Below, piece by piece: positions 20,776 to 47,800 of a stretch of DNA of 64,000 bases; position 1 is the stretch's first letter, and every line of letters starts with the position of its first letter. The position numbers were made by a program, and so were the translations under genes. Below the pieces are notes generated by a model, which did not search any database, was not told the origin of the DNA, and saw nothing but the letters and a program-made list of their open reading frames with translations. The DNA is from a virus: positions 1 to 64,000 of the IMG/VR virus record IMGVR_UViG_3300002052_000213; one strand, 5' to 3'.

Positions 20776-21906
20776 TTAGCTAACTGGTAAAGTGCTTGGG
20801 AACGTATTCTTTCCAGACATAACTAAACAGGCTGCTAGAGTATCTGTGATACCAAATCCTCTTTCTGCATAGAAGTAGTATGCAACCATGTCTTTCTCAT
20901 AGACATCATCTCTGTAAGAACGTAGTTCTTCTTTGTGTACATCATATCCAAGTCTTGAAGTATCTACAACTATAGCACATCCTTCTGGAAGTCTCCTAGA
21001 TTCAGTGATAACTTTTAGTCCCCATACCTTTCCTATTTCTGCATTCATTAGTGGTTCTCTTCCACCATAAGCAGAAGCATCCAAGAAATTAACCTTGTCA
21101 TCATATAATAGGCTAGGCATGTCATTCCAAGACATCACTACAACATTAGGATCTCTACCATGAGAGATTAGCTTAGCTTTTCCTTTAAGGATACCCCAAG
21201 CGTTAATTCCAGTTTCTTGACTTCCTGGTTGAGCACCAGTGATTGCAAGTAGATTTCTACCTGGTACTTGGTAGTGTATTGTATTAACTGCAGCTAGAGT
21301 TGAATACAGATATATGCTTCCTGCAGCATAATCTATACCTTTGATAGTTCCTGCCATTGAAGTCTTGACAGAGTTTACTGTCCATACTGGAGCTGTCATA
21401 GGATATACTGAAGAGCCAGTAGCAAAACCTGTTACCGTTTCTGCAGCTTGTTTGTTAGAAGCATATATTAGTTGGTAATATGCAGCATCATCTATTTGTT
21501 CCTTGTATTGAAGACCTACTTCATAGATGTTATCTTTTATAACATCTCTCATAGCAAACTTAATTGCTTCTCTAGTTATCTTCAACCAACCAGCAACTTT
21601 GTACACTCCAATTGTAGTTCCAGTGTAAGCTGTTAAACCTACTGTTGCTTTTAGACTTGTAACATCTTTACCTTCAATTGCACCTGCTGTAGTCTCTATA
21701 GTGAATCCACCTGCAGCATTAGCTGAGGGGAATATCACTTCTTTACCTGGTTTGTTAAGGATATCTCTGTTTACTCTGTATAGTTGTGCCCAAGTAACTT
21801 TCTTGTGCACAATTTCCTCAAAAGTTGCAGCTATAACTTCAGGAGTAATAATACCTACATCTGCAGCAGAAATTGACTCGCCTGTTAGTTCCTCTATGTC
21901 TAACAC
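20776..21906 (-). CDS. Major capsid protein, HK97 fold
   Basis: 376 residues with a GTG start behind AAGGTGAG. It has the HK97 pattern: an N-terminal arm, the extended loop region (GGFTIETTAGAIEGKDVTS), the long spine helix (TREAIKFAMRDVIKDNIYEV) and the C-terminal P/A-domain strands (FFYAERGFGI-type ending as YYFYAERGFGI). It stands alone between a promoter and a terminator, so it is probably the most strongly transcribed gene. Its codons are slightly richer in G and C than the neighbours. Confidence 0.85.
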   Translation of the reverse strand: MLDIEELTGESISAADVGIITPEVIAATFEEIVHKKVTWAQLYRVNRDILNKPGKEVIFPSANAAGGFTIETTAGAIEGKDVTSLKATVGLTAYTGTTIGVYKVAGWLKITREAIKFAMRDVIKDNIYEVGLQYKEQIDDAAYYQLIYASNKQAAETVTGFATGSSVYPMTAPVWTVNSVKTSMAGTIKGIDYAAGSIYLYSTLAAVNTIHYQVPGRNLLAITGAQPGSQETGINAWGILKGKAKLISHGRDPNVVVMSWNDMPSLLYDDKVNFLDASAYGGREPLMNAEIGKVWGLKVITESRRLPEGCAIVVDTSRLGYDVHKEELRSYRDDVYEKDMVAYYFYAERGFGITDTLAACLVMSGKNTFPSTLPVS

Positions 21907-21985: not shown

Positions 21986-22237
21986 TTAGTATCTTAATCT
22001 TTTCTTACCGTCTGCAATTATGAAATCTACACACTTTTCTATAAGTTCTGAAGAAAGTATTTCCTCTTCCTGTAATGCTTCTCTTTCTTTGGGAGTCATA
22101 GATAAAAGTAGAGCTTTTCTCGTATCTCCATCTATTCTCTGATTATTCTTTCTAAGCCCTACTATTTCATCTTTTAAAGCTTTTTGTGTTTTTAATATTT
22201 CTTGTAGAATAGGTACTAATTCATCTGCAGTTACCAT
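21986..22237 (-). CDS. Small helical protein between protease/scaffold and capsid
   Basis: 83 residues, overlapping the end of the upstream gene by seven bases. It is predicted helical with a coiled-coil-like start (VPILQEILKTQKALKDEIVGLRK, charged) and a TPKEREALQEEE stretch. Position before the capsid gene suggests a capsid assembly helper. No family is recognised. Confidence 0.6.
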   Translation of the reverse strand: MVTADELVPILQEILKTQKALKDEIVGLRKNNQRIDGDTRKALLLSMTPKEREALQEEEILSSELIEKCVDFIIADGKKRLRY

Positions 22238-23979
22238 TTCTCTTGATCCCTCTCAATGATTAGAGTAGCAGCTTTCTCTAGCATATCTCCTTCTTTCTTC
22301 TTGATTATGTTTAATAGTTCTTTCTTTGTCCATTTCTTAGGTTGTGGAGTAACTATCTTTGCTTCCTCTTCTTTACTTTCTTCTTTAACTTCCTCTTTCT
22401 TCTCTTCTTTTACTTCTTCTTTCTTTGGCTCTTCCTTTGCTTCCTTTTCCTTACTTTCCTCTTCTTCTGGTTTCTTTTCCTTACTTTCTGATACTTCTTC
22501 TTTCTTTTCCGTACTTTCCTTTGGTGTTTCTTTAGGTGTTTCCTTAACTTCCTCTTTAGGTGCTTCTTTAGGCTCTTCTTTAACTTCTTTCTTTGATTCC
22601 TCTGATAATTCCTCTTTTGATAGATTATATTTCTCACAACTTATTAAATGATCTACAAATTCTCTTTCTGTATTAAAGATACCTTCACAATATTTACACT
22701 TCATATTTATTGACAATGTATTCTTTCTAACATCACAATGAGGGAAATGTTTACTTATACTATCAAATAATTCATTACAATATGGACATCTTTTTCTTTT
22801 CATTTCTTCTTCACATTCACTACATTCTTCTGTCTTCTCTTTATATTCTTCCTCTTCTTCAGATTTCTCTGCTACTTTATGACCTGTAGCTTTCATACGT
22901 TTCTCTATTCTATTTCTCATCCAACTCCACTCTGCATCTGAATATCCACCTTTACTCTTATTCTCTGGTTTACCAGAATAAGCCCATGCAGCTCTTAAAT
23001 GTGCATCATCCATAGGATATTTAAAGTTACATGGATCTGCAAACATACTTTCAGGTACATTAGCATATTCACTTGGTTTAGTTACATGCCCACCATGTTC
23101 TAGTTTAGGAGATACGGGATATTTAGCACATCTAGTTTTCATAGCATTTATTTCTCCTTCTGTTGCTTTATGTTCTTCTATATCTTCAGATAAAGTAGTT
23201 TTTCTTGGAACTATTCCTTCTTTCTTCTCTTTCTTTTCTAAGCTACATTCAGTAAGCCAGTGTTCTAAATAATCTTGAAAGATAGGAAATGATGCTTTAC
23301 ACTTAGGACATAAGAATGTCTTCAATTCTGTGTAGATTACTTGAACTCTATGTTCACCAGTCAATAAATCACTCATTTCTTCACTCCTCTTTTCTTCCTT
23401 TTCTTCTTTTATACCATAATATTGAAGGGATAAATCTTCAGTATGAAATACATTACAATTACTACATGCAGGAAATTGTGTTAAAGTGTTATTCATAGGT
23501 CTCAAATCTACTGCTTTAGTGTAATCACCTACTGACACTTTACGTTCTTTAAGTCTCATAGAAGTAGCAGTAAATCTACCAGTTTTAATATCTTCTATTG
23601 CTTTTGGATTATCTATTATAGATGAATATAGTGCAGCTTTTATTGTTGGATTATATTCTACATAGTCATGAGTACCAACTACATCATCTTCATATTCATC
23701 TGTTCTCTCATGTTCTACTGTCATATTCATTCCTAGAATATAATCTTTAAAGTTATTCACCATTTTCTCTATTTCTTCACCTGAATAATAAATACCATTA
23801 TGCATTCCTTCCGCAAGTAATATACCAGTTATTTTAAGTTTATCTTTAAGATCTTCTATTGAAATAGCAGATAAAGATTCAACTTCTAAATCCTGTATAT
23901 GTGATTTTAATAATTCTCTCATAATTCTATTTTCTTCTAATATTTCAGTATATATACCTTGAGAATCTTCTACTTTCAT
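22231..23979 (-). CDS. Prohead protease fused to zinc fingers and a Glu/Lys-rich scaffold-like tail
   Basis: 582 residues. About 45-185 resemble a capsid maturation protease (GMHNGIYYSGEEIE, MTVEHERTDEYEDD with a His, IKTGRFTATSMR with a Ser). Three CxxC-x(n)-H-x(n)-C fingers follow at about 223-246, 393-412 and 422-446. Between them, about 285-370, is a block with KYPMDDAHLRAAWAYSG like the DUF6582 module of phage capsid proteins. Then comes an E/K/P repeat tail (456-545) and a C-terminal helix. Such a tail could scaffold the capsid and be cut away. The start has a GAGGG site and its own TATA box. Confidence 0.7.
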   Translation of the reverse strand: MKVEDSQGIYTEILEENRIMRELLKSHIQDLEVESLSAISIEDLKDKLKITGILLAEGMHNGIYYSGEEIEKMVNNFKDYILGMNMTVEHERTDEYEDDVVGTHDYVEYNPTIKAALYSSIIDNPKAIEDIKTGRFTATSMRLKERKVSVGDYTKAVDLRPMNNTLTQFPACSNCNVFHTEDLSLQYYGIKEEKEEKRSEEMSDLLTGEHRVQVIYTELKTFLCPKCKASFPIFQDYLEHWLTECSLEKKEKKEGIVPRKTTLSEDIEEHKATEGEINAMKTRCAKYPVSPKLEHGGHVTKPSEYANVPESMFADPCNFKYPMDDAHLRAAWAYSGKPENKSKGGYSDAEWSWMRNRIEKRMKATGHKVAEKSEEEEEYKEKTEECSECEEEMKRKRCPYCNELFDSISKHFPHCDVRKNTLSINMKCKYCEGIFNTEREFVDHLISCEKYNLSKEELSEESKKEVKEEPKEAPKEEVKETPKETPKESTEKKEEVSESKEKKPEEEESKEKEAKEEPKKEEVKEEKKEEVKEESKEEEAKIVTPQPKKWTKKELLNIIKKKEGDMLEKAATLIIERDQEKW

Positions 23980-24033: not shown

Positions 24034-26262
24034 TTAATCTTCATCTAATATTAATTGCATAAACATCTTCCTAAAATCTTTTTCTCCTGTTAAACTTAAA
24101 GTTTCTACAGTTGGATATACATTTGTACTTAATAGAGATAATTCTGCAATATCTTCAAATATAGTATGACTTAAAATTGATAGACATTCACTTGTTTCTC
24201 TATATAATATTCCTCTTAATGATAATTCCAAAGTTAAATATTTCTGTACAGTTCCAATTATTTTTAATGTACTTTGTATAGGAGCAAACATATCTCCTTT
24301 TATTAGTAATTTTATTTCATATCTTTCAGTGTAGATTGCTCTTCTACGAGGTACTCTCCTTCTTACTCTTCTTGGAGGAGCTACTGCTTCTTCTCCTTCT
24401 AAAATAGCATCTGTAACTATTGTTCTAGTTTTAAGTAAACTAACTAAGAATGAATCTGTTTCTATAATTCTAGTTCCTATTTTCTTTAAGACACCATCAG
24501 ATTCTACTATTCTTTGAGATATTATTTTAAGTATACTATCAGTTAGAATTTCTCTACTGTAAATGCCTTTTAATATACTGTCAGTGTATATTATTCTTTC
24601 TAATGTTCCTGTTAATATTGCATCAGATAATATTGTTCTCTGGAATATACCTTTAAGTATTGAATCTGTTAATACTGTTCTTTCTAATGTTTTATATAGT
24701 ATGGAATCTGTTATTAGTTCTTTACTTAATGTACCCTTTAGAATGGCATCAGTGATTATAGTTACTCCTAATCCAACAATGTAAGCATCTGTTACGATTG
24801 TTCTCTTAGTTATAGTTTCCTCTAAATATGCATCTGTAACAAAATCTCTAATTTCAGTCTTTGATAGAACACTATCAGTTTCTATTTCTCTAGAAAATAC
24901 ACTTTTAAGAATAGTATCTGATTTAAGTGTTTTTTCTATTGTTGAAAGTAATATAGCATCTATTGATATATCTCTAGTTAAAGTTCCTATTAAAATACCA
25001 TCAGTTAAAAGTGTTCTAGTTAATAACTCACTAAGGATTACATCTGTTAAAATACTTCTTTCTTTTATACTTTTAAGGACACTATCACTAAGAATTATTT
25101 TTACAAATCTGTTTATTATATATGCATCTGTCTTTATTGCTCTAGTGTATATTCCTTTTAGTGTGGAGTCAGATAAAATAGTTCTTATAAATCTATTTAC
25201 AAGATAACTATCAGTTTGAATTTCTCTTATTGAAGCTAATTGCAAAATAGAATCTGATAATATTTCTCTAGAAACCGTTTCTAGTAAATAAGCATCTGTA
25301 TAAATTTCTCTTACAGGAACTGATACAAGATTAACATCTGTGAGAACATCTCTAGTGGAAGATAACTTTAATATAGAATCAGATAGAGTATCTCTTGTTA
25401 GTGTTTTAATTAAAATACTGTCAGTTACCATATCTCTGCTTGTTATTCCAGTAAGATTAGCATCTGTTAATAGTGTTCTTGTATATTGTCCTTTTAGAAC
25501 TGCATCAGATAAGACATCTCTACTTAACGTACCTTTTAGTATAGCATTAGATTCTATTGTTCTAGATACTATTATTTTTAATATAGCATCAGATTCTATT
25601 TCTCTTTGTGTTGTTTGTTTTAATACACTATCTGATAAAACTGTTCTAGTTAATCTATTTACTAAATAACTATCAGTTAAAACTTCTCTAATGGAAGATA
25701 TTAATAATATACCATCAGTTAATACTTCTCTTTCTCCTTGTTGCATTAATATTGCATCAGTAAGAACTTCTCTTTCATATTGGACAGCACCTTCAGTATA
25801 ATAAACTGTTACTTGACAATAATCTGCTCCCCAATATGCTCCAGATTTACCATCAGCAGTAGCTGTTATTCTTATTCTAAAATTAGTTGATTTTATATGT
25901 GCTCCTGTCCAAGTTCCATTCCAATTATCTTCAGCACCACCAAGTATTTTATCTACACAATCAGCACAAGTAGAACCTGTACCTGGATCAGTAACTTCTT
26001 TTAATACCCATGTATCAGTCGAATCTTTAAGTTCTACATCAATATCATCATCTGTATCTCCAGCTATACAATGTATTAATACTTCAATTCCATCTATAGT
26101 TGCTCCATCTGACATCACAGAGAAATTAAAACTAAATTCACCAGATACTGCATTCTTATTACCAGATGTACAACTTCCACTATGAGAACCTATAAAGTTA
26201 GATTCATTACTCCAATTACCTGCAGCTTGAAGAGTAGTAGCATTTCTAGTTTCACTTGCCAT
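24034..26262 (-). CDS. Virion-type protein with 33 copies of a 14-residue repeat
   Basis: 742 residues. Residues 1-160 are a beta-sandwich-like domain with several Cys (CTSGN, HCIAGD, CADCVDK) of the type found in surface decoration proteins. Residues about 163-625 are 33 tandem units of 14 residues, pattern R-x-[ILV]-x-[ST]-D-[AS]-[IVY]-L-x-x-x-x-x, probably one beta turn or hairpin each. A Pro/Arg-rich linker (PPRRVRRRVPRRR) and a beta-rich end follow. Likely a fibre or rod on the capsid or neck; no known family is recognised. Confidence 0.65.
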   Translation of the reverse strand: MASETRNATTLQAAGNWSNESNFIGSHSGSCTSGNKNAVSGEFSFNFSVMSDGATIDGIEVLIHCIAGDTDDDIDVELKDSTDTWVLKEVTDPGTGSTCADCVDKILGGAEDNWNGTWTGAHIKSTNFRIRITATADGKSGAYWGADYCQVTVYYTEGAVQYEREVLTDAILMQQGEREVLTDGILLISSIREVLTDSYLVNRLTRTVLSDSVLKQTTQREIESDAILKIIVSRTIESNAILKGTLSRDVLSDAVLKGQYTRTLLTDANLTGITSRDMVTDSILIKTLTRDTLSDSILKLSSTRDVLTDVNLVSVPVREIYTDAYLLETVSREILSDSILQLASIREIQTDSYLVNRFIRTILSDSTLKGIYTRAIKTDAYIINRFVKIILSDSVLKSIKERSILTDVILSELLTRTLLTDGILIGTLTRDISIDAILLSTIEKTLKSDTILKSVFSREIETDSVLSKTEIRDFVTDAYLEETITKRTIVTDAYIVGLGVTIITDAILKGTLSKELITDSILYKTLERTVLTDSILKGIFQRTILSDAILTGTLERIIYTDSILKGIYSREILTDSILKIISQRIVESDGVLKKIGTRIIETDSFLVSLLKTRTIVTDAILEGEEAVAPPRRVRRRVPRRRAIYTERYEIKLLIKGDMFAPIQSTLKIIGTVQKYLTLELSLRGILYRETSECLSILSHTIFEDIAELSLLSTNVYPTVETLSLTGEKDFRKMFMQLILDED
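24388..25773 (-). repeat. 42-bp coding repeat array, 33 units
   Basis: Units such as REVLTDAILMQQGE, RTLLTDANLTGITS and REILTDSILKIISQ follow without gaps; only three are 13 or 15 residues long. The span is 33 times 42 bp. Copies are not identical in DNA. Confidence 0.9.
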
Positions 26263-27587: not shown

Positions 27588-27908
27588 TTATGCGTAATAT
27601 ACTATTAACATCTTTATTCTTAATTCAACATTTAAAGATTTCTCAAATTTGAGTGAAGGACTCCATTTAATTTCCATTTGTTCAGTTTCATAAGGTTGTA
27701 TTACTTTAGGAGCTGAAAGAATTTTTAATCCATCAATTTTAGGTAACGTATATTCCATATCTTCTAATACACCAGAATTATCATTGTAAATATATAATGT
27801 CATTGTCTTCTCTGTTCCAGCTTCTACTCTACCAAAATGTAAAGTAAACTTTTCATCCTCAGAAGGAATTACTTCTTCTTTCTTTTCTTTATCTAAATAG
27901 AATTTCAT
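27588..27908 (-). CDS. Ig-like beta-sandwich protein
   Basis: 106 residues from the ATG at 27908, which overlaps the phosphoesterase stop as ATGA with GGAG ten bases before. The pattern HFGRVEAGTEKTMTLYIYND and PYETEQMEIKWSP resembles an immunoglobulin-like or cadherin-like domain used in virion surface proteins. It contains no enzyme motif. Confidence 0.5.
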   Translation of the reverse strand: MKFYLDKEKKEEVIPSEDEKFTLHFGRVEAGTEKTMTLYIYNDNSGVLEDMEYTLPKIDGLKILSAPKVIQPYETEQMEIKWSPSLKFEKSLNVELRIKMLIVYYA

Positions 27909-28600
27909 TTTTCTTGTGTCTCCAACCAACTCTTAATTAATTTAAGTTTGCTTTCCTTTAATTCTCTATCTAAGTCTTCATCTTTACCTTTTATTTCCTT
28001 TTCTATAGCTTTTCTTTCCTTCATTTTTTCTTCCACATATAATTGTAATATAGATTCTCCTACAATATCCTTTATAGTTAAATCTTTCTTTTTTGGTTTC
28101 TTGATTTCTGGTATTTCTATAAACTTTTCTTCATCTGGTTTATATTTTTTAAAATACCATTTAGCATCAGATCCTCTAGCAAATAGATAATCTCCTTTTA
28201 TTTTATTTCCATTAAATCTAAATATTTTCAAAGTTGGATTATTTTCTATAAGACTTACTTCACCATAATCTATAACATCAATTGTAGAAGACATATCTCC
28301 TACTTTACGTTTTAAATTATTTCCTTCTTTAATAAACCATTTCTCAGGTTCATAAGATAATTTTGGTAACACTAAAGAACTATCATTTTCTAATATATCA
28401 CTCCATAAATTAAACTCTAGTAACTGATCTGGTGCTATTCTTATCCTCAAATCCCAATGAGGTTGTTTTTCTTCTAGAGTATGCTTATGATATACAAATT
28501 CTAATTTATCTAATTCTTCAGAAGATAATTTATTAATATAATCAGGTATATCATTCTCTAATTTCTTAGAAGTGTCAATCATGTCTTCAGTTATCTTCAT
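27905..28600 (-). CDS. LigD-type 3'-phosphoesterase domain protein
   Basis: 231 residues from the ATG at 28600 (GAGGAG seven bases before). Residues about 35-150 match the phosphoesterase domain of bacterial/archaeal LigD: FVYHKH with His, then PHWDLRIR with His, Asp and Arg, and late KIKGDYLFARGS followed by WYFKKY. In LigD this domain trims 3' ends during end joining. The C-terminus is a Lys/Glu-rich helix. It overlaps the ligase-like gene, suggesting they work together. The LigD match is by motif, not by search. Confidence 0.65.
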   Translation of the reverse strand: MKITEDMIDTSKKLENDIPDYINKLSSEELDKLEFVYHKHTLEEKQPHWDLRIRIAPDQLLEFNLWSDILENDSSLVLPKLSYEPEKWFIKEGNNLKRKVGDMSSTIDVIDYGEVSLIENNPTLKIFRFNGNKIKGDYLFARGSDAKWYFKKYKPDEEKFIEIPEIKKPKKKDLTIKDIVGESILQLYVEEKMKERKAIEKEIKGKDEDLDRELKESKLKLIKSWLETQEK

Positions 28601-30215
28601 AATCTTCTCCTCTATTACTAGATTGTCCTTCATAATAATAACCTTTTAGGTAATGACATTTAAATATATTTGCTAAATCACATGATATTGGAAATTCTAT
28701 ATTTTCTTTACTTAAATTACACCAAGATTCTCTATAATATGGACATGTTTCTAACTGTAGAGATTCTATAAATTTAATATTTGTTAATTTACTCCATTCT
28801 TCAGTTTTATTATTAGCAATTTTAATAGGATATTTACTATCTGCTACTTTAGCTATCATATTTTTTGATATTTTATATAACTCAGTAACATTAGATGTTA
28901 ATAGATTAGGAGATTCACAAGCACAGGAACTACGTACATAATGTAAGAATCTAGAATTTTCAGGTATTACATCAGGTATTTTATTCCATCTCTCATAATA
29001 ACCTTTATTGTTTAAAGATTCTCCATCTAAATATAAGATATCATGTACATGAAATACCATACAATTTTCTTGTTCTGGAGATATCTTTTCTAAGATATCT
29101 TTATGAAGTTCTTCACAAATAGATGATTTCATTTTTGCTGACTTTACTATTTTTTTATTACAGTTATATAATACCATTTCAGAATCTAATATAAAATTAT
29201 GATCTATACCCATCAATTCATTAATTACATTAGGTATTAAAGAAGAAATATCTCTTTCATCTTCACAGAATATTCCTATTTTATCTCCTTCTTTATGAAT
29301 AGTAAATCTTTTGCCTTTATAATCATTTTGTATTATTATTCCTCTATCCAAATATTTACTAGCCCATACTTTATAGAAAGTGTTATAATTTGAAAATTCA
29401 TTCTTATTACCAGTTTTAGTTTTTAGTACATCAAATTTCATAAATGGTTTAATCTCAAAAATTTTAGGCTCTTCTATACTTTGTTCCTGTTTAGAAGTTT
29501 TAAATAATCCATGTTGAAACAAAGGAATATTATCTCCTTTATATATTCCATTAGGATCAAATATTACATTTATCATGTTAGATAACCAAGAAGGTTCTAT
29601 ACTTTTTATAGCATATATGACTCTAGGATCTACTTCTCTTTTAAATATTAAATCTATTCCTCTAATTTTAGATGTTTTTCCTTTGTTTACTATATCTCCA
29701 CTTATATATGCTTCCCAAGGTTCTCCTTTAATTGCTACTGAAGAAGGAAAAGATTTCAGTACTTCTTCTAGAGTTACATATTCTCCTAATGGTTCTTCGA
29801 TATAAGAATCTACTTCATCAATGTCAAAATGTGGATATCCTCTATTTTCTAATTCTTCTTTAACTTTTATGTGTATATCATACATTTTATTAGCATGAGA
29901 GTATGCATGTAATATAATTAATTCGTCTAGAGTTGCTTCTTCAGTATTTTTCTTAGTTCCAAATACTTTAGGAATTATAGCTTCTATAGCTATTGAATCC
30001 ATTAATTCTTGTAACATATGATGACTAATAGGTTTAGTTTCGTCTATTCCTCTTTTTCTAATAGTAGCATAAAATACACTCCATCCACCTTGACATCCTC
30101 TAATAGAAGTTCCATCTGTAAATTTTCTAGTTACTTTCTTAGGATTTCTTGCACAATATTTCGGATTATTTACCATACTTCTAGCCATATTTTTGAATGA
30201 AGCATGTATTGGCAT
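28587..30215 (-). CDS. Inactive-looking ATP-ligase-fold protein with a nucleotidyltransferase-like segment
   Basis: 542 residues. About 240-430 follow the ATP-dependent ligase pattern: a motif I region reading QNDYKGKRFTIH, then ILDSEMVLY (motif III) and HVHDILYLDGESL (motif IV). In active ligases motif I is E-x-K-Y-D-G-x-R with the catalytic Lys; here K and D are exchanged (DYKG), so adenylation is doubtful. Around 160-190, YISGDIVNKGKTS and GIDLIF recall a small nucleotidyltransferase. The C-terminus holds a Cys cluster. Coupled to the LigD-type phosphoesterase in a virion operon. Confidence 0.6.
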   Translation of the reverse strand: MPIHASFKNMARSMVNNPKYCARNPKKVTRKFTDGTSIRGCQGGWSVFYATIRKRGIDETKPISHHMLQELMDSIAIEAIIPKVFGTKKNTEEATLDELIILHAYSHANKMYDIHIKVKEELENRGYPHFDIDEVDSYIEEPLGEYVTLEEVLKSFPSSVAIKGEPWEAYISGDIVNKGKTSKIRGIDLIFKREVDPRVIYAIKSIEPSWLSNMINVIFDPNGIYKGDNIPLFQHGLFKTSKQEQSIEEPKIFEIKPFMKFDVLKTKTGNKNEFSNYNTFYKVWASKYLDRGIIIQNDYKGKRFTIHKEGDKIGIFCEDERDISSLIPNVINELMGIDHNFILDSEMVLYNCNKKIVKSAKMKSSICEELHKDILEKISPEQENCMVFHVHDILYLDGESLNNKGYYERWNKIPDVIPENSRFLHYVRSSCACESPNLLTSNVTELYKISKNMIAKVADSKYPIKIANNKTEEWSKLTNIKFIESLQLETCPYYRESWCNLSKENIEFPISCDLANIFKCHYLKGYYYEGQSSNRGEDYEDN

Positions 30216-30545
30216 TTATCCTACTTCCTCTATGATGTCTACCCAAAATGGAGTCCAAGTAGTTATTGCTCCAGGTTCAATTACTTCTATATCACCTATA
30301 TACTTTCCTACTTTATCAGTATCTCCATCCTCTAAGGTATATCTAATAGTTCCAGAAGTAGAATAAATATTACATGTATTATCAATAGTTAAAGTACTTT
30401 CACCATACTTCTTAAGGTGAATAGTTACTGTAGTAGCATTTGTTAAATCGTATAATGTTTCACTATCACTCTCATATAGAACAAATTCTAAATATTGACC
30501 ATAATCTCCCTGTACTATAGTAGCTTCAGTAATCATTTCTACCAT
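30216..30545 (-). CDS. BppU-like Ig domain protein
   Basis: 109 residues. TEATIVQGDYGQYLEFVLYE, then VTIHLKKYG, IRYTLEDGDT and GKYIGDIEV follow the N-terminal domain of phage baseplate upper proteins, an Ig-like fold. It may connect fibres to the virion. It starts two bases behind the preceding stop. Confidence 0.55.
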   Translation of the reverse strand: MVEMITEATIVQGDYGQYLEFVLYESDSETLYDLTNATTVTIHLKKYGESTLTIDNTCNIYSTSGTIRYTLEDGDTDKVGKYIGDIEVIEPGAITTWTPFWVDIIEEVG

Positions 30546-31958: not shown

Positions 31959-32813
31959 TTACATATATCCTAGATATCTAAGACGTTCCATAATCTTATC
32001 TTTTTGTTTTCTTCCTTCTCTCTCTCCACCAGATGAAACATTTATTTCATATTGAAAATCATCTATTGTTGTAGCTTTACTTTCTATTGGAGTAGTACAT
32101 TGCATACATCCTAAACTTCTAAATCTTAGACCATCTTTAGAGAAATATAAAGGATTAACTGGAACATCATATGTTTTAATATATTCCCAAATATCTAATT
32201 CGGTCCAATGTAATATTGGATGTACTCTTACATGCTCACAATCTTTACCAAAATCTGATTGATATAGTTCCCATAGTTCAGGTTCTACTAAAGACACTAA
32301 AGGAGCATCTCCTTCTTTAAGTTCTTCTTTAGTCTTCTCTCTAACTACTTTCCATTCCCACATATGTGTTCTTGGGCTAAAATAATGTTCTTTACTTCTT
32401 ACTCCTAATTCATCCCATCTTATACCTAAAATAGCAGCATCATAATGTTCTTTCTGAAATAATTCCTTTAATGCCATAGTTTTTCTACACATACAACAAT
32501 TAAATATTCCATCCTCACTTTCTAAATCTATTTCCTTACAATCTTCTTTCTTAGCTATCTTTAGTGGTATATGCCACCCAGAGGATATCATATCTCTGAA
32601 CTTATACATTTGAGGAAATAATTTACCTGTATCTATATGTACTATATCAAATGGTATTTCATAAAACATATTAAATATCATATGTAACAATACTGTACTA
32701 TCTTTACCAGTACTCCATAACATACATGGTTTCTTGAATCTAGCTTTAGCTTCTCTTAGAATAAATTCTGTTTTACTTATTAAACTTTTTAAATCTCTAT
32801 AGTAATATTTCAT
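31959..32813 (-). CDS. cysD: CysD-like PP-loop ATP sulfurylase/PAPS-reductase family protein
   Basis: 284 residues. The PP-loop MLWSTGKDSTVLLHM, HIDTGKLFPQMYKFRD, the ending RFRSLGCMQCTTPIESKATT and EREGR follow CysD, the catalytic subunit of sulfate adenylyltransferase, along nearly the whole length; the family also contains PAPS reductases. CysD makes APS from ATP and sulfate. The GTPase partner CysN, APS kinase and a sulfotransferase are not visible in the window, so it may use host partners or do another nucleotide reaction. It is last in the sugar cassette. Confidence 0.75.
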   Translation of the reverse strand: MKYYYRDLKSLISKTEFILREAKARFKKPCMLWSTGKDSTVLLHMIFNMFYEIPFDIVHIDTGKLFPQMYKFRDMISSGWHIPLKIAKKEDCKEIDLESEDGIFNCCMCRKTMALKELFQKEHYDAAILGIRWDELGVRSKEHYFSPRTHMWEWKVVREKTKEELKEGDAPLVSLVEPELWELYQSDFGKDCEHVRVHPILHWTELDIWEYIKTYDVPVNPLYFSKDGLRFRSLGCMQCTTPIESKATTIDDFQYEINVSSGGEREGRKQKDKIMERLRYLGYM

Positions 32814-33612
32814 TTAACTCAACTTCTTTTACTATAATATTTCCTTCATATTCGTATGATATAGCTACTTTATTTCTTCTTCCGAAACATGGATATGCTG
32901 ATATAACGAAATCTTTAGTTCTTATAACTTTATCCATATTTAAAATATTAAAGATATTATCACTAGACAATATTCCTTCTCCTTGAAAAGTTAATGGATG
33001 AGAACTCCATATTGGAACATGTAAAGTTTCTTCATCAAAATGTTTCCCTATTGGAAACTTATATTTTTTTAAATCTGTCTTTGAACCATGATCTGAAGTA
33101 ATTACAATATTATCAAATATTTCTCTATATTTTTCTATAATAGGATTAATTTCTCCATAACAGAATTTAAGTTCTTCTTCATATGTTTTATGAATGAAAT
33201 GATGTTTACTCATTACAAAATGTCCTCCTCTTAGATGAATAAATATAATTAATGATTCTTCATTTACAGTAACATTAATGTCCTTTTCTATTTGTTTTAT
33301 AATTTCTTTTTTAGATGTATTTACATTAATTTTACTTAAAATTGGAAGGAAAGAATATTTTTTACTAATTTTATAATCATCAAAGATAGTTCTATAGGTA
33401 TGAAAACACATTCCAGCTCTCCATATTTTTCCTTTATCTTTAATAGAATATAAAAGAAGTTCAGGAGTTGTTAATCCAGTTATCATTGAAAATATAGATG
33501 GAAGAGTCCAATTACAATTAGCTATACATTCATATTTATAAAAATCTTTAAAATTTAAAATGTGCGAATAAGAATAATTAACAGCATCTAAAACAACAAA
33601 TAAAGTTCTCAT
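32797..33612 (-). CDS. Alkaline-phosphatase-superfamily protein (first of three)
   Basis: 271 residues from the ATG at 33612, which overlaps the FkbM stop as ATGA and has GGGAG before it. LFVVLDAVNY holds the first metal Asp, CNWTLPSIFSMITGL the nucleophile site, and IVITSDHGS the late metal ligands. The nucleophile is Thr, not the Cys/Ser in CxPxR that sulfatases convert to formylglycine, so phosphotransferase or phosphodiesterase activity is more likely. It may add or remove a phosphate-linked group on a glycan. Confidence 0.65.
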   Translation of the reverse strand: MRTLFVVLDAVNYSYSHILNFKDFYKYECIANCNWTLPSIFSMITGLTTPELLLYSIKDKGKIWRAGMCFHTYRTIFDDYKISKKYSFLPILSKINVNTSKKEIIKQIEKDINVTVNEESLIIFIHLRGGHFVMSKHHFIHKTYEEELKFCYGEINPIIEKYREIFDNIVITSDHGSKTDLKKYKFPIGKHFDEETLHVPIWSSHPLTFQGEGILSSDNIFNILNMDKVIRTKDFVISAYPCFGRRNKVAISYEYEGNIIVKEVELNEILL

Positions 33613-34238
33613 TTTTTCTCCCAATATGGTCCAATATTAGTAAACCCTTCTTTATTTAATATTTTAGTACATACTCCCTTTGCTCCACTATGCCAAGAAA
33701 TAAATAATTTCATTTGAGGATTATTTCTTAACAAATTTATCATTCCTGGTATAGCATATCTTTCTGCTCCTTGAATATCTAGTTTAATTAAATCTAAACG
33801 ATCTTTAATTATTTCATCTAGTGCTATTACTCTATATTTACTCCAAGGAGGATATGTTCTACCTGGAGGTGTAGAATGTTGTAAATCAGATAATCCAAGA
33901 CACAATGGTATTACATTTTTAAATCCATTAATAAAGGTAGCAATCATTAACCTAGTAAAATGTTTATAATATGGTTCAAAAGCATATACTATTCCTGTAT
34001 TTTCCATTTTCTTAGCAGCTAAGAATGCATAATATCCAGTTTGTGATCCACCATCTACCACTATCATATCCTTCTCTACTACACCTTTCCAAGATTCTGA
34101 TTGTCTATTTTCCCATCTACCTGAATTTGCTATTGATTTTTCACTTGATCCTTTACTAGTTTTAGAGAAGCAATATTTAATTCCAAAGTGTTCTATTATT
34201 TCATAATCATCTAGAATTGTATTTGAAATTTTATTCAT
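33609..34238 (-). CDS. FkbM-family methyltransferase
   Basis: 209 residues. MIVVDGGSQTGYYAFLAAKK is the SAM-binding loop, followed by YAFEPYYKHF, VIALDEI and LIKLDIQGAERYAIPG, the sequence of the FkbM family, which O-methylates sugars and small molecules. It overlaps both neighbours and probably methylates a sugar built by this cassette. Confidence 0.8.
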   Translation of the reverse strand: MNKISNTILDDYEIIEHFGIKYCFSKTSKGSSEKSIANSGRWENRQSESWKGVVEKDMIVVDGGSQTGYYAFLAAKKMENTGIVYAFEPYYKHFTRLMIATFINGFKNVIPLCLGLSDLQHSTPPGRTYPPWSKYRVIALDEIIKDRLDLIKLDIQGAERYAIPGMINLLRNNPQMKLFISWHSGAKGVCTKILNKEGFTNIGPYWEKK

Positions 34239-35004
34239 TTAAATCAACTTCTAACCAAGGAATTTCCAATAGAGTTCTATATTGATGCAAATCTGGTCCA
34301 TGACCTACATAACCATTCTCTTCAGGAAATCCTAATGCTTCTCCATGATCTGAGCTTATTACTACTTTCTTATTCTTAGGAATTTCTTTTAATAAATTCT
34401 TAACTTCGTCTAATATCAATATCACATTGCTGATATATCCTTCTCTACATTCATCTATGCTTAAATTTCCTCTTTTAACATAATCCCACATTATTCCCTG
34501 AAATCTCTTTCTTTCATCTATATTCATTTCCTGTAAATGTTTCTTTTCTTTGTTTTCTGTCCATTCTAAAAGAAGTCCCCTTCCTTTATTTCCTTGTGGA
34601 TGTTCTAACCAAGGAAAGTGAGGTTGTAAATAATGAATTATTATTCTTTTATCTGGATATTTTTTAATTGTATTTATACCTATTCTAGTTATAGTATCTG
34701 GTCTTACTCCATTTAACTCTTCATCCCATCCTATATCCCAAGCATCTACAATAGTAAAGAAATGCTCTCTATTTATTTTACTTAATTTAAAATTCGTAAC
34801 CATAGGATTTCCAGATACATATATTAATTCAGGGTATGGTTTAGTGAAGTTATCTCTTAACCACATCCAAGTTCCAGTATTAAGAGATTCTACTTTCTTT
34901 AATTTGCCTTTAATATTATTAAACATCTCAAATACGTCATATCTCATAGCATCTAACAATATTAAAATATCCCATTTCTCTTTCATAACTTTTATTTTTT
35001 TCAT
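34231..35004 (-). CDS. Alkaline-phosphatase-superfamily protein (second of three)
   Basis: 257 residues. ILLDAMRYDVFEMF is the N-terminal metal site, IIHYLQPHFPWLEH the middle, VVISSDHGEALG and GHGPD the C-terminal site. It is a clear paralogue of the gene at 39244. A Thr in the TGTWMWLRDNF region is the likely nucleophile. The ATG overlaps the preceding stop as ATGA. Similar proteins occur in archaeal surface-polysaccharide clusters. Confidence 0.7.
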   Translation of the reverse strand: MKKIKVMKEKWDILILLDAMRYDVFEMFNNIKGKLKKVESLNTGTWMWLRDNFTKPYPELIYVSGNPMVTNFKLSKINREHFFTIVDAWDIGWDEELNGVRPDTITRIGINTIKKYPDKRIIIHYLQPHFPWLEHPQGNKGRGLLLEWTENKEKKHLQEMNIDERKRFQGIMWDYVKRGNLSIDECREGYISNVILILDEVKNLLKEIPKNKKVVISSDHGEALGFPEENGYVGHGPDLHQYRTLLEIPWLEVDLNE

Positions 35005-35567
35005 TTTAACATACCTATTTTAGTTTCCAATTCTTTTATAATATTTTTTACTTTATTTAAATTTTTAGATAATATAGTTATTCCATGCCTCTTACTATAA
35101 GAAGTAAATTCATATTTATATATATTAGAAAATAATTCAATTGCCTTTAATTCTTTAGGGTTTATAGTTGTATTTTTCATCACTATAAACCCATCTTCTT
35201 TAAGAAGATTATGTATAAGTGTTAATTGTTTAAAGTAATGAGATTTATCTGAATTTAGATCTAAATCAACAAAGCACATATCTACTTGAATATCTAAATT
35301 AGGAAGAACATCTAAATCATATCCTTCTATAAATTTCCAATGTGGATGATTTTTATATCTTACAATAAATTGTTTTCCTCTTCCATTATCTATACTATAT
35401 AATATTCCCTCTAACCCTAATAACATAATCCTTGTTGATCTACCAATACCTATTCCTAATTCTAAAATAGTACCATTTCCTATAGATTTAGCTAGTTCAT
35501 ATAATAGAATACCATGTTCATGTAAATAATCTCCACCTATTCTACGAATTTTATTATAAATTTCCAT
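35001..35567 (-). CDS. Class I SAM-dependent methyltransferase
   Basis: 188 residues with ILELGIGIGRSTRIML (SAM loop), LYSIDNGRGKQF, DMCFVDLDLN and a TLIHNLLKEDGFIVMKN strand, a Methyltransf_24-like arrangement. The substrate is probably a sugar or sugar nucleotide because of the neighbours. It overlaps the aminotransferase gene. Confidence 0.75.
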   Translation of the reverse strand: MEIYNKIRRIGGDYLHEHGILLYELAKSIGNGTILELGIGIGRSTRIMLLGLEGILYSIDNGRGKQFIVRYKNHPHWKFIEGYDLDVLPNLDIQVDMCFVDLDLNSDKSHYFKQLTLIHNLLKEDGFIVMKNTTINPKELKAIELFSNIYKYEFTSYSKRHGITILSKNLNKVKNIIKELETKIGMLK

Positions 35568-36684
35568 TATCCCACTTCTTTACAGTTTTAATAATATAAT
35601 GAACATCTTCATTAGTTAAATCTTGATGAATAGGAATATGCATAATATTTTTTTCTGTTCTTTCAGTATTTAATAAATCCTTTCTTATTGGACCAAATAT
35701 GGACCATTTATCATTCCTATGATAAAGTTGACTAACTTCTATATTGCTTTTCTTCATATATTTAGCAAAGTTATTTCTAGCCCATACATGAATTGGGAAT
35801 ATCCAATAATTAGAAGTTTTATTCTGAGAATAATCTAATAAATGTACATTTCCTAAGAAGGATAATTCTTCAATATATCTTTCAGCAATTTCTTGTCTTC
35901 TTTTATATACTTCATCAAAATATTTTAAAGATTCTATCCCAAATGTAGCTGTAATGTCATTCATGTTATATTTATATCCTAAATTATAGATATCTTTAGG
36001 AAATGTTCCTAAGTCTGTACTTACTCTATCTTTTTTATTTATACCAAACCATGAAAGAGTTTCTAGAAAATGTTTGATAAAGATATCATCTGTAACTACT
36101 GCTCCACCATCTCCACATGTAATAATCTTTACTACTTGAAATGAGAAGCATACAAATTCATTTTTATAAAAGTTACCAATATATCTATTCTCAAATTTAG
36201 ATCCTAAAGCTTGTGCTGCATCTTCTATAAGTACCAAATTATTTCTAATAGCTATTTTATGAAGTTCCCATAAATCACATGGATAACCAGCATAATGTAC
36301 ACACATTATTGCTTTAGTTTTATCTGTTATTCTATGTTCTATATCTTTAGGATCTATATTTAATGTTTCATATTTTATATCAGCAAATACTGGTTTAGCA
36401 TTTTGTTCTAATATGGAAGTGTTAGTAGCTTCCATAGTCCAAGGAGTAGTTATTACTTCATCTCCTACTCCTACTCCTGCTACTGCTAAAGATAATCTTA
36501 AAGCACTAGTGCATGAATTAGTAAGAATTAAATAAGGAAATCTAAATTTATCTTCTAGTAATTCAGTAAAAAGTTTAGCCTTTTCTCCTGTGTTTAGCCA
36601 TCCACTATCTATAGTTTTCTTTACTTCCTCACTAGCTTCTTTTGGGATGAATGGCGAGAACAATCTTATAGTATCTTTATGCAT
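35554..36684 (-). CDS. DegT/DnrJ/EryC1-family sugar aminotransferase
   Basis: 376 residues, full length for the family. NSCTSALRLSLAVAGVGVGD, DEVITTPWTMEATNTS, LIEDAAQALGSKF and the PLP-lysine region FSFQVVKIITCGDGG are all present. These PLP enzymes convert a keto group of a nucleotide sugar to an amino group. The substrate could come from the epimerase/dehydratase in the same cassette. Confidence 0.9.
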   Translation of the reverse strand: MHKDTIRLFSPFIPKEASEEVKKTIDSGWLNTGEKAKLFTELLEDKFRFPYLILTNSCTSALRLSLAVAGVGVGDEVITTPWTMEATNTSILEQNAKPVFADIKYETLNIDPKDIEHRITDKTKAIMCVHYAGYPCDLWELHKIAIRNNLVLIEDAAQALGSKFENRYIGNFYKNEFVCFSFQVVKIITCGDGGAVVTDDIFIKHFLETLSWFGINKKDRVSTDLGTFPKDIYNLGYKYNMNDITATFGIESLKYFDEVYKRRQEIAERYIEELSFLGNVHLLDYSQNKTSNYWIFPIHVWARNNFAKYMKKSNIEVSQLYHRNDKWSIFGPIRKDLLNTERTEKNIMHIPIHQDLTNEDVHYIIKTVKKWDNGNL

Positions 36685-37912
36685 TTTTAATTCTCCATTT
36701 ATTAGATAAAATAAAATCTCTTAAATGATTAAAATGTTCTGTTAATTCTTCACTACTACAGAAATCAGTTTCTATAACTGATTTAGAAGGATATCTAAAG
36801 AAATATTTAGAAAAATCTCTGGTAATAATTCTAACTCCATATTTCTCTGGATTCTTCCATATATCACAACTAGGAAATGGGATAAATAATGTAACTGGAG
36901 CTTTATCTGGTTGAGTATCTATAACAAATTGTTTAGTTTTCTCTATAGTTTCCCATGTTTCACCTGGGAGTCCAGCCATTAAAAATAATTTTACTCCTAT
37001 ATTATATTCCTTAAGTATTTCAATAGCTTTTTTAGATTGATTAACCGTTATTCCTTTATTCATTAATTTAAGTATACTATCATCTGCTGTTTCTATACCT
37101 AAGTTTACTTCTTTACATCCCATTCTAACTAACATTTCACATATTTCATCATTTAAAGCATCTACTCTAGCTTGACATCTAAACAATATATGTAAAGATT
37201 CAAATACTAGAGTTAATTCTCTGAGTCTTTTTTTATTCATAGTAAAATGATCATCTAATAAATCAAAATGTCTACAATTATATCTTTCAATTAAGAACTT
37301 TATCTCATTAGCAACATATTCTGTGCTATGAAATCTTACCGATTGAGGAATATTAGCACAGAAAGCACAGTTATATGGACAACCTCTAGATGTTATAATG
37401 GTAGTTGCAATTGGATCTTCATCATAAATAAATCCATATCCGCCCCATACACTCTTAGTTACTATTCTATTATCTTTCATTAAATGTCTAGCTGGAAATG
37501 GAATAGAATCTATATTTTTAATACTTTCACCATATATTATACCTTTATTTCCATTAGCAATTAAATCTAATATTGTTTTTTCTCCATCTCCAACAATTAT
37601 ATTATCATAATATCCTAGAAAGTCTTCAGGTAGATTACTAGCATGAGCACCACCTATAACTGAATTACCATCTCTTTTACTGAGATATTTTCCAATCTTC
37701 TTTGCATCCTCAGCTTCTGTAGTTGTTGCAGTTACTCCGTATAAATCACCTTTGGGTATTAAATTAAGATTAGAATTTTCTCTTAAATCACATATTTTAA
37801 CTCTATGACCTTCCTTCTCTAGTATTGCTCCTATATACAATAAACCTAATGGGGGATATACTGTAGGTTCATTTAATAAAGGAGCTGGTGGAATTATTAG
37901 AATTATTTTCAT
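36677..37912 (-). CDS. B12-binding-domain radical SAM protein
   Basis: 411 residues. The N-terminal 130 residues are a cobalamin-binding-like fold (IIPPAPLLNEPTVYPPLGLL, SVIGGAHASNLP). The radical SAM cluster motif is SRGCPYNCAFCAN at about 173-185, followed by LGIETADDSILKLMNKG and LFLMAGLPGETWE. Family members methylate or rearrange unreactive carbons. In this cassette it may C-methylate a sugar or lipid. Confidence 0.85.
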   Translation of the reverse strand: MKIILIIPPAPLLNEPTVYPPLGLLYIGAILEKEGHRVKICDLRENSNLNLIPKGDLYGVTATTTEAEDAKKIGKYLSKRDGNSVIGGAHASNLPEDFLGYYDNIIVGDGEKTILDLIANGNKGIIYGESIKNIDSIPFPARHLMKDNRIVTKSVWGGYGFIYDEDPIATTIITSRGCPYNCAFCANIPQSVRFHSTEYVANEIKFLIERYNCRHFDLLDDHFTMNKKRLRELTLVFESLHILFRCQARVDALNDEICEMLVRMGCKEVNLGIETADDSILKLMNKGITVNQSKKAIEILKEYNIGVKLFLMAGLPGETWETIEKTKQFVIDTQPDKAPVTLFIPFPSCDIWKNPEKYGVRIITRDFSKYFFRYPSKSVIETDFCSSEELTEHFNHLRDFILSNKWRIKNA

Positions 37913-37923
37913 TTATATCCACA

Positions 37924-38895
37924 TTAGAAATTGAGTATACTTTTCCAATAACTTTCATTATTTTTGTACCATTGAATAGTCTTCTTTATACCATTTGCTA
38001 AAGTTTCTTTCGGTTTCCAATTCAATTCATATCTCATCTTATTTCCATCTAGAGCATATCTGAAATCATCTTTTAATCTATACCCAGAGAATCCTTTAAA
38101 TAAATATTCCTTATTCATTAATTTTAATATTAAATTAACTATATCAGGTACTGATTTATATGTAGCTGGTGGTATATGATATATTTCTCCCACATTTCCC
38201 TTAGTTGCTATTACATCCATAGCATTACTAGAATCTCCTACATATATCCATCCTCTAATAGACTCTCCTTTATATAATGTGAATGATTCTTCAGATAGAG
38301 CCTTAGTAATTATTTTAGCTATTAATTTCTCTGGGTGTTGATATGGACCAAACATATTCATAGATCTTACAAATACTACTGGAACTTTAAAACACTCACT
38401 ATAAGATCTACAATACATTTCTGCAGAAGCTTTAGAAGCTGAGTAAGGATTCTGAGGATAAAATCTACTATCTTCTTTATAATATACGCCTAATGGTGCA
38501 TCACCAAATATCTCATCTGTACCCATATAGATAAATAATGGTTTCTTTTTTAGATATCTAATTATTTCTAATAGTGAAACTGTGCCTAAGATATTATTTC
38601 TTATGAACTCTTCGACACACATAAAACTTTTATCTACATGTGTAGAAGCTGCTAAATGATATACTATCTCAGTATTGTTTCCTATGGTTTCCTGAAATAG
38701 TAGTTTATTATTAATATCTCCAGATATAAACTTATAATTAGGATTTTCTTCTAAATCTTTCATATATATAGGATTAGAATCATAAGTACTTTTATCATAG
38801 TTAATAATTATCTTATCTTTATATGTATCTAATAAATATCTTATTAGATTAGTACCAAAGAATCCTGAACCACCTGTTACAATTATTTTATTCAT
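37924..38895 (-). CDS. NAD-dependent sugar epimerase/dehydratase (dTDP-glucose 4,6-dehydratase-like)
   Basis: 323 residues. GGSGFFGTNLIRYL is the NAD site, YMGTDEIFGDA carries the T-D-E dehydratase triad, and YSASKASAE the catalytic Tyr and Lys. RfbB-type enzymes make 4-keto-6-deoxy sugars, good substrates for the aminotransferase nearby. The stop overlaps no gene; the start overlaps the cupin stop. Confidence 0.9.
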   Translation of the reverse strand: MNKIIVTGGSGFFGTNLIRYLLDTYKDKIIINYDKSTYDSNPIYMKDLEENPNYKFISGDINNKLLFQETIGNNTEIVYHLAASTHVDKSFMCVEEFIRNNILGTVSLLEIIRYLKKKPLFIYMGTDEIFGDAPLGVYYKEDSRFYPQNPYSASKASAEMYCRSYSECFKVPVVFVRSMNMFGPYQHPEKLIAKIITKALSEESFTLYKGESIRGWIYVGDSSNAMDVIATKGNVGEIYHIPPATYKSVPDIVNLILKLMNKEYLFKGFSGYRLKDDFRYALDGNKMRYELNWKPKETLANGIKKTIQWYKNNESYWKSILNF

Positions 38896-39242
38896 TTAAC
38901 TTTACTCCTAAGTTCTTCATCAGTTATTGTTTCTTTATTAGGTTCCCACCATTCCATTATCCAATTATCAGCTTTAGATTCTAGAAGATGCGGAATATTG
39001 GGAGGGCAAACTATCATGTTTCCTTCTTTTAATTCAAATCTTATATCCTCTTTAGGATATTTATGAATAAATATTACTTCACCTTTAAGTATCACTCTGT
39101 ACTCTAAAACATTATGTGAGTGCCCACCTCTTAGATATCCTTTCTTAGTAAAGAATATCATAAGCTCTTGTAAAGGATCATCTTGTAACCTAAAAGAATA
39201 AACTTCTCCTCTCTTATCACTTTGTTCTAATTTAAATCTCAT
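38892..39242 (-). CDS. Cupin-domain protein
   Basis: 116 residues. GGHSHNVLEYRVILKGEV and the later CPPNIPHLLES are the two cupin metal-binding motifs. In sugar clusters such proteins can be isomerases or simple binding proteins; the exact role is not visible. Confidence 0.75.
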   Translation of the reverse strand: MRFKLEQSDKRGEVYSFRLQDDPLQELMIFFTKKGYLRGGHSHNVLEYRVILKGEVIFIHKYPKEDIRFELKEGNMIVCPPNIPHLLESKADNWIMEWWEPNKETITDEELRSKVK

Positions 39243-39243
39243 A

Positions 39244-39990
39244 TTATTTCACTCTAAACCAAGGTACTTTCCTTAAAGCTTCATTCACTATTCCTTTACC
39301 ATGACCAAATGTTTCACCTTTATATCCTAACATTTCTCCATGATCTGATGTTATATATACAACCTTATCAGTATTAATATTCTCAATAAGTTTTTTAACC
39401 TCTTCTAAGACAATTAAAAAATTAGCTATGTATCCTTCTCTCACTTCTTCTACATTTACTTTATCTCCAACATATTGCCATACCATTCCTTCAAGTTTCT
39501 GTAATTCTTCTCTAGTTAGAAATCTTTTATTTTTATCTTGTAAATAATCTCTCAGATTACCTCTTCCAACTCTTTTCTTAAATGATAGAAAGGGAGAATG
39601 TGGTTGCAGATAATGTATTATAAATCTCTTATCTGGATTCTCATCCATAGCTTGAATACTTGCTCTAGTAACTGAAGAAGGATGTACTGCATTTATTTTT
39701 TCATCCCAAGCCCAATCCCATACTTCTATGAGTCTATAAAATGGATTTTCAATTTTTAACTTATTGTTTAACTTCCATTCTGATACCCAAGCATTTCCTG
39801 ATACATATACTATATCTTTACATTCTCTATCAAAGTTATTATAAACCCATTCCTCTGTACAAGAACCTAAAGAATATCTAGGTTCTAATGTTCCAGATAT
39901 ATCATTGAATAATTCAAATACATCATATCTACATGCATCTAATATTATGAGAATATCCCATTCTTCATCTAATATTTTAAGAGCTTTCAT
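39244..39990 (-). CDS. Alkaline-phosphatase-superfamily protein (third of three)
   Basis: 248 residues. IILDACRYDVFELF, IIHYLQPHSPFLSF and VVYITSDHGEMLG with GHGKG match the paralogue at 34231 along the whole length. SCTEEWVYNNF aligns with its TGTWMW region and supplies a Thr as possible nucleophile. The ATG overlaps the glycosyltransferase stop as ATGA. Confidence 0.7.
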   Translation of the reverse strand: MKALKILDEEWDILIILDACRYDVFELFNDISGTLEPRYSLGSCTEEWVYNNFDRECKDIVYVSGNAWVSEWKLNNKLKIENPFYRLIEVWDWAWDEKINAVHPSSVTRASIQAMDENPDKRFIIHYLQPHSPFLSFKKRVGRGNLRDYLQDKNKRFLTREELQKLEGMVWQYVGDKVNVEEVREGYIANFLIVLEEVKKLIENINTDKVVYITSDHGEMLGYKGETFGHGKGIVNEALRKVPWFRVK

Positions 39991-46581: not shown

Positions 46582-47049
46582 TTATTTCTCCAGTATGTGA
46601 TCTATTGAACTTTTTAATGCTTCCTTTATAGTAATGTGCCAAATTCCACCATGTTTCTTCTCTTTAAGATCTTTAACTCCACAATAGTTCAATAATCTAC
46701 TACAAATGGTACAAGCAAAGAAATTAGATTTCCATAAACTACCATCAGGTCTTCTTCCTATAATGTATAGTGTAGAACCTTTAACCATATTAGGTTTATT
46801 CCTTAAAGCATCTATTAATGTCATCCATTCACTATGAATAGCATAACATAGTGCAGAATTCTTTCCTACTTCTAAATTCTTTATCTTATTTTTTATACAG
46901 TAAGTAGCACATTCTGGATTCAGAGCATAGTTATGTCCTCTACCTATCACTACTCCATCTTTCACTAAGCAACTACCAAAGTGTATTAGACAACAATTAG
47001 ATTTTAATAGTTCTTCTTCACATATATTCCAGAAAAAATCTTCATTCAT
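46582..47049 (-). CDS. Cytidine/dCMP deaminase-like protein
   Basis: 155 residues. AIHSEWMTLIDAL has the H-x-E catalytic pair and FFACTICSRLLNYCGV the CxxC zinc ligands of deoxycytidylate deaminases. The usual Pro before the first Cys is Ala. A dCMP deaminase makes dUMP, the substrate of ThyX encoded at 63345, which suits an AT-rich genome. Confidence 0.75.
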   Translation of the reverse strand: MNEDFFWNICEEELLKSNCCLIHFGSCLVKDGVVIGRGHNYALNPECATYCIKNKIKNLEVGKNSALCYAIHSEWMTLIDALRNKPNMVKGSTLYIIGRRPDGSLWKSNFFACTICSRLLNYCGVKDLKEKKHGGIWHITIKEALKSSIDHILEK

Positions 47050-47058
47050 ATCTATACC

Positions 47059-47569: not shown

Positions 47570-47571
47570 AT

Positions 47572-47799: not shown

Positions 47800-47800
47800 A

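Follow-up and report, generated by a model that had tools for sequence, protein, structure and literature searches.

The window, by which we mean the whole stretch of DNA analyzed (64,000 bases of a 65,235-base IMG/VR virus record, 29% GC), carries in a late virion operon two overlapping minus-strand genes, one for a protein with a DNA ligase fold (P0001) and one for a LigD-type phosphoesterase (PE; P0002). On balance, we lean towards the view that this pair descends, in reduced and probably non-catalytic form, from a DNA end-repair toolkit linked to the virion. It appears to be a degenerate member of a family of virion-locus repair proteins that seems little described. Repair enzymes are usually regarded as replication-phase proteins. 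In many uncultured viruses, however, the set of ligase, PE, and nucleotidyltransferase is found at the head-assembly locus, several times with the head-maturing protease fused, and it is a directly testable claim that certain virions may contain a break-repair kit of their own. The window virus, in which an apparently dead ligase is retained, is a natural experiment that can show if the job of the toolkit is partly to bind DNA and not to seal it. The positions of all features are listed in Table 1.

Table 1 Features of the ligase–PE region and its virion operon (window positions)
Feature	Position	Strand	Evidence or remark
Ligase-fold protein P0001, 542 aa	28587..30215	-	PF01068, E 1.2e-15
Nucleotidyltransferase motif, residues 171-189, ISGDIVNKGKTSKIRGIDL	29649..29705	-	Gly in place of the first DxD Asp
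Ligase motif I, residues 297-303, NDYKGKR (relatives KKYDGxR)	29307..29327	-	Alignment with 35 relatives
Ligase motif IV, residues 450-456, SKNMIAK (relatives SEGxxxK)	28848..28868	-	Residues absent just before motif
C-terminal Cys cluster, residues 491-520 (C491, C499, C512, C520)	28656..28745	-	Counterpart in relatives
LigD-type phosphoesterase P0002, 242 aa as listed	27905..28633	-	Fold and profile matches to LigD PE
PE metal-site motif, residues 46-63, FVYHKHTLEEKQPHWDLR (H51, H59, D61, R63)	28445..28498	-	Sequence alignment
BppU_N-like protein, synteny marker, directly upstream of ligase gene	30216..30545	-	PF10651, E 0.0068, below cut-off
ASH-domain-like small virion-operon protein, synteny marker, adjoins PE gene	27588..27929	-	PF15780, below cut-off
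Head-maturation-protease-like protein	22231..23979	-	Homologues in L065, L088, L090, L103
Major capsid protein	20776..21906	-	PHROG major head protein, E 1.2e-12; PF25209, E 1.2e-5, just under cut-off

The tailed virus encoded in the window has archaeal features; its genes include those for an intein-bearing terminase, a DNA polymerase of family B, a recombinase of the Rad51/RadA type, a tail tube of the phage type, and the major capsid protein. The large terminase (1831–4227) is interrupted at about residues 154–487 by the intein, which has a LAGLIDADG-like endonuclease signal. On the 5′ side of the P0001/P0002 pair lie the BppU_N-like and other beta-rich proteins. The 3′ side holds the small ASH-like protein, several more genes, the head-protease-like gene, and the capsid gene, and the genes separating the pair from the latter two are in part fiber-like. 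The head-protease-like protein matches the head protease of L066 with an hhalign probability of 97, and the L066 protein links to XkdF at 88; the direct profile comparison of the window protein with XkdF is weak (only 10.7). By these profiles, it is a separate counterpart of the XkdF domain that is fused in relatives. Between the head protease and the ligase region, a 742-aa protein (24034–26262) contains many degenerate repeats of about 17 residues (REVLTDxILxxTLSR), and its C-terminus has homologues in L065 and L090.

P0001 as a chance open reading frame is ruled out by the probability of 542 codons remaining open at its base composition (p ~4e-25) and by homologues with the same gene order; its codon-position composition is normal. 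The protein comprises an N-terminal domain, a degenerate nucleotidyltransferase domain, a degenerate ligase adenylation domain, and a C-terminal Cys cluster. The Pfam family DNA_ligase_A_M (PF01068) matches residues 289–464. An AF2 model built on an alignment with 20 relatives resembles ATP-dependent DNA ligases across the adenylation domain and superimposes on the A. fulgidus ligase 3gde with Z 21.4 (194 residues, rmsd 2.3). The model is confident in parts only (mean pLDDT 69.7) and weak outside the adenylation domain; the part before residue 160 was unmatched in the PDB structure comparison, which tests the N-terminal part poorly. The ligase fold proposed in a sequence-only reading of this DNA is thus present. 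The nucleotidyltransferase-like segment pointed out in that reading is homologous to the DID-type motif of relatives but reads GID. A profile of this region gave only insignificant matches in the PDB (terminal transferase, E 1.3), and the domain is identified by the motif and by the weak match of one relative to NTP_transf_2 (E 0.03). The Cys cluster, noted in the same reading, is matched by the C-termini of L065/L091, L090, L095, L096, and others.

The catalytic losses were defined by comparing 36 near-complete ligase domains, namely that of the window and those of 35 relatives from viral and MAG contigs. In motif I of P0001 (N297-D298-Y299-K300-G301), Asp298 occupies the position of the Lys nucleophile, which is present in 35/35 relatives, and two residues further on, the Asp or Asn of the relatives is Lys. 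The Glu and Gly of motif IV, again found in all 35 relatives, are replaced by Lys451-Asn452. The first Asp of the nucleotidyltransferase DxD, kept in 10/10 aligned relatives, is Gly, and the domain is predicted to be without one metal ligand. About 185 residues following motif V in L065 have no counterpart in P0001; by their position, they probably represent the OB domain. Likewise, L065 has a metallo-beta-lactamase domain and three PE repeats, and the window has a counterpart for just one of these repeats and none for the domain. Motif III (LDSE346), motif IIIa (HDILYLDG), Lys456 of motif IV, and the Lys of motif V are kept. Hence, the earlier statement that ligase motifs III and IV are present holds for motif III and for the Lys of motif IV but not for its Glu-Gly. 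Of the features of an active ATP-dependent DNA ligase, the adenylation fold is found; as the nucleophile, the motif IV Glu, and the putative OB domain are lost, P0001 can hardly form ligase-AMP.

That motif I reads DYKG where active ligases have KYDG was confirmed (NDYKG in the window, KKYDG in relatives). A sequencing error is unlikely since neither the change from Lys to Asp nor the reverse can arise from fewer than two base changes. A motif shifted elsewhere in the relatives, which would have undermined the earlier reading, is ruled out because their KxDG is at the very same position. A pattern search for other viruses with an exchanged D-[YF]-K-G motif returned none, and the exchange is known from the window alone. 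According to the alignment, it is real, lineage-specific, and part of a wider catalytic loss in an open reading frame. The idea of a coordinated swap defining a new system is not upheld: the exchange is one of several lineage-specific losses, and other family members look intact.

Simple peptide-pattern scans with P0001 and P0002 in viral and genome contigs and tblastn in INPHARED phages, all of low sensitivity, yielded no relatives. The relatives were recovered via a degenerate DNA pattern for the nucleotidyltransferase motif and subsequent alignments. They are parts of giant multi-enzyme proteins, with the nucleotidyltransferase, the ATP-dependent ligase, and LigD-type PE repeats joined in one or two proteins. 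In 34 giant proteins, Pfam domains were tallied as ligase (30), metallo-beta-lactamase (8), XkdF head protease (at least 8, in which it terminates the protein), D12 DNA methylase (6), pyrimidine-dimer glycosylase-like (3), 2H phosphoesterase (2), PNK 3′-phosphatase (1), and C5 methylase (1); NCBIfam LigD_PE was found in 6 and a queuine-transferase family of PHROGs in 4. At the loci examined, their genes are located between those for portal and capsid: L043 has, in this order, terminase, portal, giant protein, and capsid, and L066 has portal, ligase protein, PE protein, head protease, and capsid. Inteins inside catalytic motifs, which interrupt motif I of the ligase in L016/L058 and L059 and the first of the PE repeats in the L092 virus, fit conserved, functional motifs in those relatives; inteins in or near ligase/PE catalytic motifs were seen in L016/L058, L059, L060, and L103. 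TGT/DpdA-like N-terminal segments occur in the giant proteins L018, L022, L041, and L058, and queuosine-pathway-like genes lie near L041 and L058, which hints at deazaguanine DNA modification in those viruses.

The capsid link suggested by the sequence-only reading is real and stronger than could be known then, with several relatives fused to the head-maturation protease. The ancestral toolkit would have been a multi-enzyme DNA end-repair system at the portal-protease-capsid locus of tailed viruses, several of them archaeal. From the head-protease fusions seen in several relatives, and from the location of the relatives' genes between those for portal and capsid, we infer that these proteins are head-carried. 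They would be loaded into the head, cut during maturation, and repair genome nicks or ends in the capsid or just after entry. The window has the homology to this family across nucleotidyltransferase and ligase, a PE in the next gene, and the coding in a virion operon but not the intact nucleotidyltransferase and ligase active sites. Its ligase fold and Cys cluster probably serve as a non-catalytic DNA-binding or scaffold part, and P0001 could present DNA to the PE protein, which is predicted to retain its metal site, or keep that protein in the virion. For the window virus, a role in packaging, holding, or trimming is plausible. A wider generalization is tentative: many tailed viruses, including archaeal ones, would package in the head a break-repair toolkit of nucleotidyltransferase, ligase, and PE with varying nuclease, phosphatase, methylase, and glycosylase domains, which would be freed by the head protease and mend the genome inside the capsid or upon entry. 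In that case, the ligase of the window virus would have become a non-catalytic DNA-end clamp that works together with a PE whose active site is altered.

P0002 has no match in Pfam. Its profile, made with 15 relatives, matches the archaeal LigD phosphoesterases 3p43 (E 1.4e-8) and 3p4h (E 1.5e-6) in the PDB, all top five Foldseek matches of its model are LigD PE, and the model aligns to 3p4h and 3p43 with Z 14.6, compared with Z 4.0 for the best non-PE chain. Hence, the LigD-like phosphoesterase named in the earlier reading has the PE fold, and its only strong PDB matches are LigD PE domains. The two open reading frames overlap as listed, and the PE gene probably starts at Met12 (28600), giving 231 aa, because a ribosome-binding-like AGAGGAG lies upstream and this start fits the N-termini of relatives (MKITERM, MRITQDM). 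P0002 is the equivalent of the third PE repeat (PE-c) of the relatives plus their C-terminal helices.

Residues of the PE site were assigned from a sequence alignment and not from coordinates. P0002 carries FVYHKH...HWDLR, which aligns with the metal triad His42, His48, and Asp50 plus Arg52 of PaeLigD from Pseudomonas (PMC8656161), and the H, H, D, and R are kept in the third PE repeat of 12/12 clade members, window included. His84 and Tyr88, essential in PaeLigD (PMC8656161), align with Glu95 and Trp99 in the anion-binding positions of P0002 (EPEKW). The Tyr88 position is Trp in 12/12 third PE repeats, the His84 position varies, and the first PE repeat in most relatives reads [EQ]PxxW, as opposed to HPxxY in LigD. 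Of the features of the LigD 3′-phosphoesterase superfamily, P0002 has the beta-barrel fold and, by alignment, the metal triad with Arg52 but not the His84/Tyr88 pair. The viral PE group is likely metal-binding; its activity is unsure family-wide because of the Trp at the Tyr88 position and the variable His84 position. The HWDLR spacing pattern gave four matches, two of which (L002, L004) are chance matches. The other two, L003 and L005, are near-identical PE-ligase proteins of 147–176 kb viruses with KVDGA in motif I and a His near the PE His84 position.

These residues bear on a second explanation, in which the pair is, as proposed in the sequence-only reading, a dedicated capsid-linked system acting on DNA ends. 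The inactive ligase would serve as the clamp and the PE as the enzyme that trims 3′ ends at packaging or after injection, and end-holding would be what was selected and no by-product of reduction. The virion-operon position, the seemingly intact metal triad of the PE, and the retention of ligase motifs III and IIIa and the motif V Lys are in line with it. We nevertheless regard it as unlikely. As the ligases of relatives at the same place appear catalytically intact, the ancestral role was probably not confined to end-holding, and the PE differs at both the His84 and Tyr88 positions.

Descent from an intact toolkit, as we prefer to read the pair, can be followed in gene order and phylogeny. 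The sequence-only reading had suggested looking for the same pair beside capsid genes in other archaeal viruses, and homologues with the same gene order were found, the closest in an Archaeoglobales MAG. Its contig G003:C6 is syntenic with the window: a BppU-like gene is followed by a metallo-beta-lactamase-nucleotidyltransferase-ligase-Cys protein (1219 aa), a three-PE-repeat protein (762 aa), an ASH-like gene, a head protease, a capsid gene, and a homologue of window gene 20018. This contig of 24,094 bases is apparently also IMG/VR 3300014914_000538 (L091), which agrees with it in length and ORFs. The order BppU-like, ligase, PE is common to the window, L065, and L090, with the BppU_N-like homologues 5′ of the ligase gene in L065 and L090 and the ASH-like homologues after the PE gene in L065/L091 and L090. 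The closest virus-like contigs thus have the gene order of the window but intact enzymes. In the ligase tree, L092 (55.7 kb) is the sister of the window (support 98/90), and both are nested among intact ligases in a clade to which contigs of the Archaeoglobales MAG also belong; L092 also has the portal, PAPS reductase, concanavalin-like, epimerase, protease, and capsid genes of the window. In 392 genomes of the phylum of this MAG, the next-best matches after the MAG are in separate ORFs of about 500–620 aa and align across the adenylation domain only, as ordinary cellular ligases would. Contigs G003:C3 and G003:C6 of the MAG, B35_G2 (L060, L065–L068), have portal, head-protease, and capsid genes and look viral; they are probably virus contigs binned with the MAG.

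The same tree raises the question of ongoing decay, i.e., that the toolkit became useless in the window lineage and the P0001 gene is now functionless and on its way out. The end branch of the window is long (0.96, median 0.3) and its row has an unusual amino-acid make-up; every catalytic module is hit, the OB segment is deleted, and two PE repeats are lost. Against this, a frame of such length stays open at 29% GC with normal codon-position composition, and the Cys cluster, the gene overlap, and the PE-c metal residues are retained. We consider decay rather improbable.

Two further explanations concern what P0001 might still do. T4 gp63 is an RNA ligase that also promotes tail-fiber attachment. 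By analogy, the ligase fold could have been retained as an assembly factor for the adjoining fiber-like genes, which would suit the direct neighbors (BppU_N-like and other beta-rich proteins) and the BppU-like, ligase, PE order shared with L065 and L090; this is quite improbable, as the neighbors in other relatives are portal, protease, and capsid genes and not fibers. Least probable of all, and hardly credible, is a nucleotidyltransferase with rearranged chemistry that uses Lys300 of DYKG or another residue, or a partner protein as substrate: Lys300 is two residues from the normal nucleophile and the motif III Glu and the motif IV and V lysines are kept, but the motif IV Glu-Gly and the OB domain are gone too.

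The preferred reading, a reduced descendant of a virion-linked toolkit, can be set beside known systems. One published genome with such a protein was found, the ANMV-1 virus (KP703175.1), whose AJP62006.1 is annotated only as "ATP-dependent DNA ligase." This protein (866 aa) unites nucleotidyltransferase, ligase, and PE repeats, and its gene directly follows the portal gene. Unlike in the window, motif I (VQKKFDGVH) and motif IV are intact, an OB-like segment and the first PE repeat are present, and one gene takes the place of two. That portal gene, KP703175.1:1913-3193 (L105), is identified by its match to portal proteins (PHROG 146, E 2e-30); its annotation is MutT-like phage hydrolase. Bacterial LigD and archaeal NHEJ operons also pair a PE fold with a DNA ligase adenylation fold, where PE, ligase, and polymerase occur either as domains or as genes of their own. 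In contrast, no polymerase domain was found in the proteins studied here, and the window ligase is predicted to be catalytically dead, its PE is without equivalents of His84 and Tyr88, and both are coded with head genes. The archaeal stand-alone PE 3p43 and 3p4h, the closest solved folds to P0002, share its metal residues; at the positions of His84 and Tyr88, P0002 carries Glu95 and Trp99. Polyvalent and head-packaged phage enzymes, as described in passages of two papers (Iyer et al. 2017, PMC5512222; 2022, PMC9503650), resemble the relatives in being multi-enzyme and coded with or fused to head genes. One such case is a Nudix domain fused to a capsid-processing peptidase, for which packaging was inferred (PMC9503650). 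The nucleotidyltransferase-ligase-PE combination is undescribed in those passages, and a literature search in open-licence papers gave no account of these proteins.

Further genes of the window were noted. Inside the virion operon (31959–42052), a PAPS-reductase gene stands beside a block of methyltransferase, aminotransferase, radical SAM, epimerase, and glycosyltransferase genes, several of which are also present in the L092 virus. DNA and nucleotide genes at 46582–48328 and 63300–63935 encode a cytidine deaminase-like protein, an 8-oxoguanine glycosylase (PF22175, E 4e-19), and ThyX (E 7e-60).
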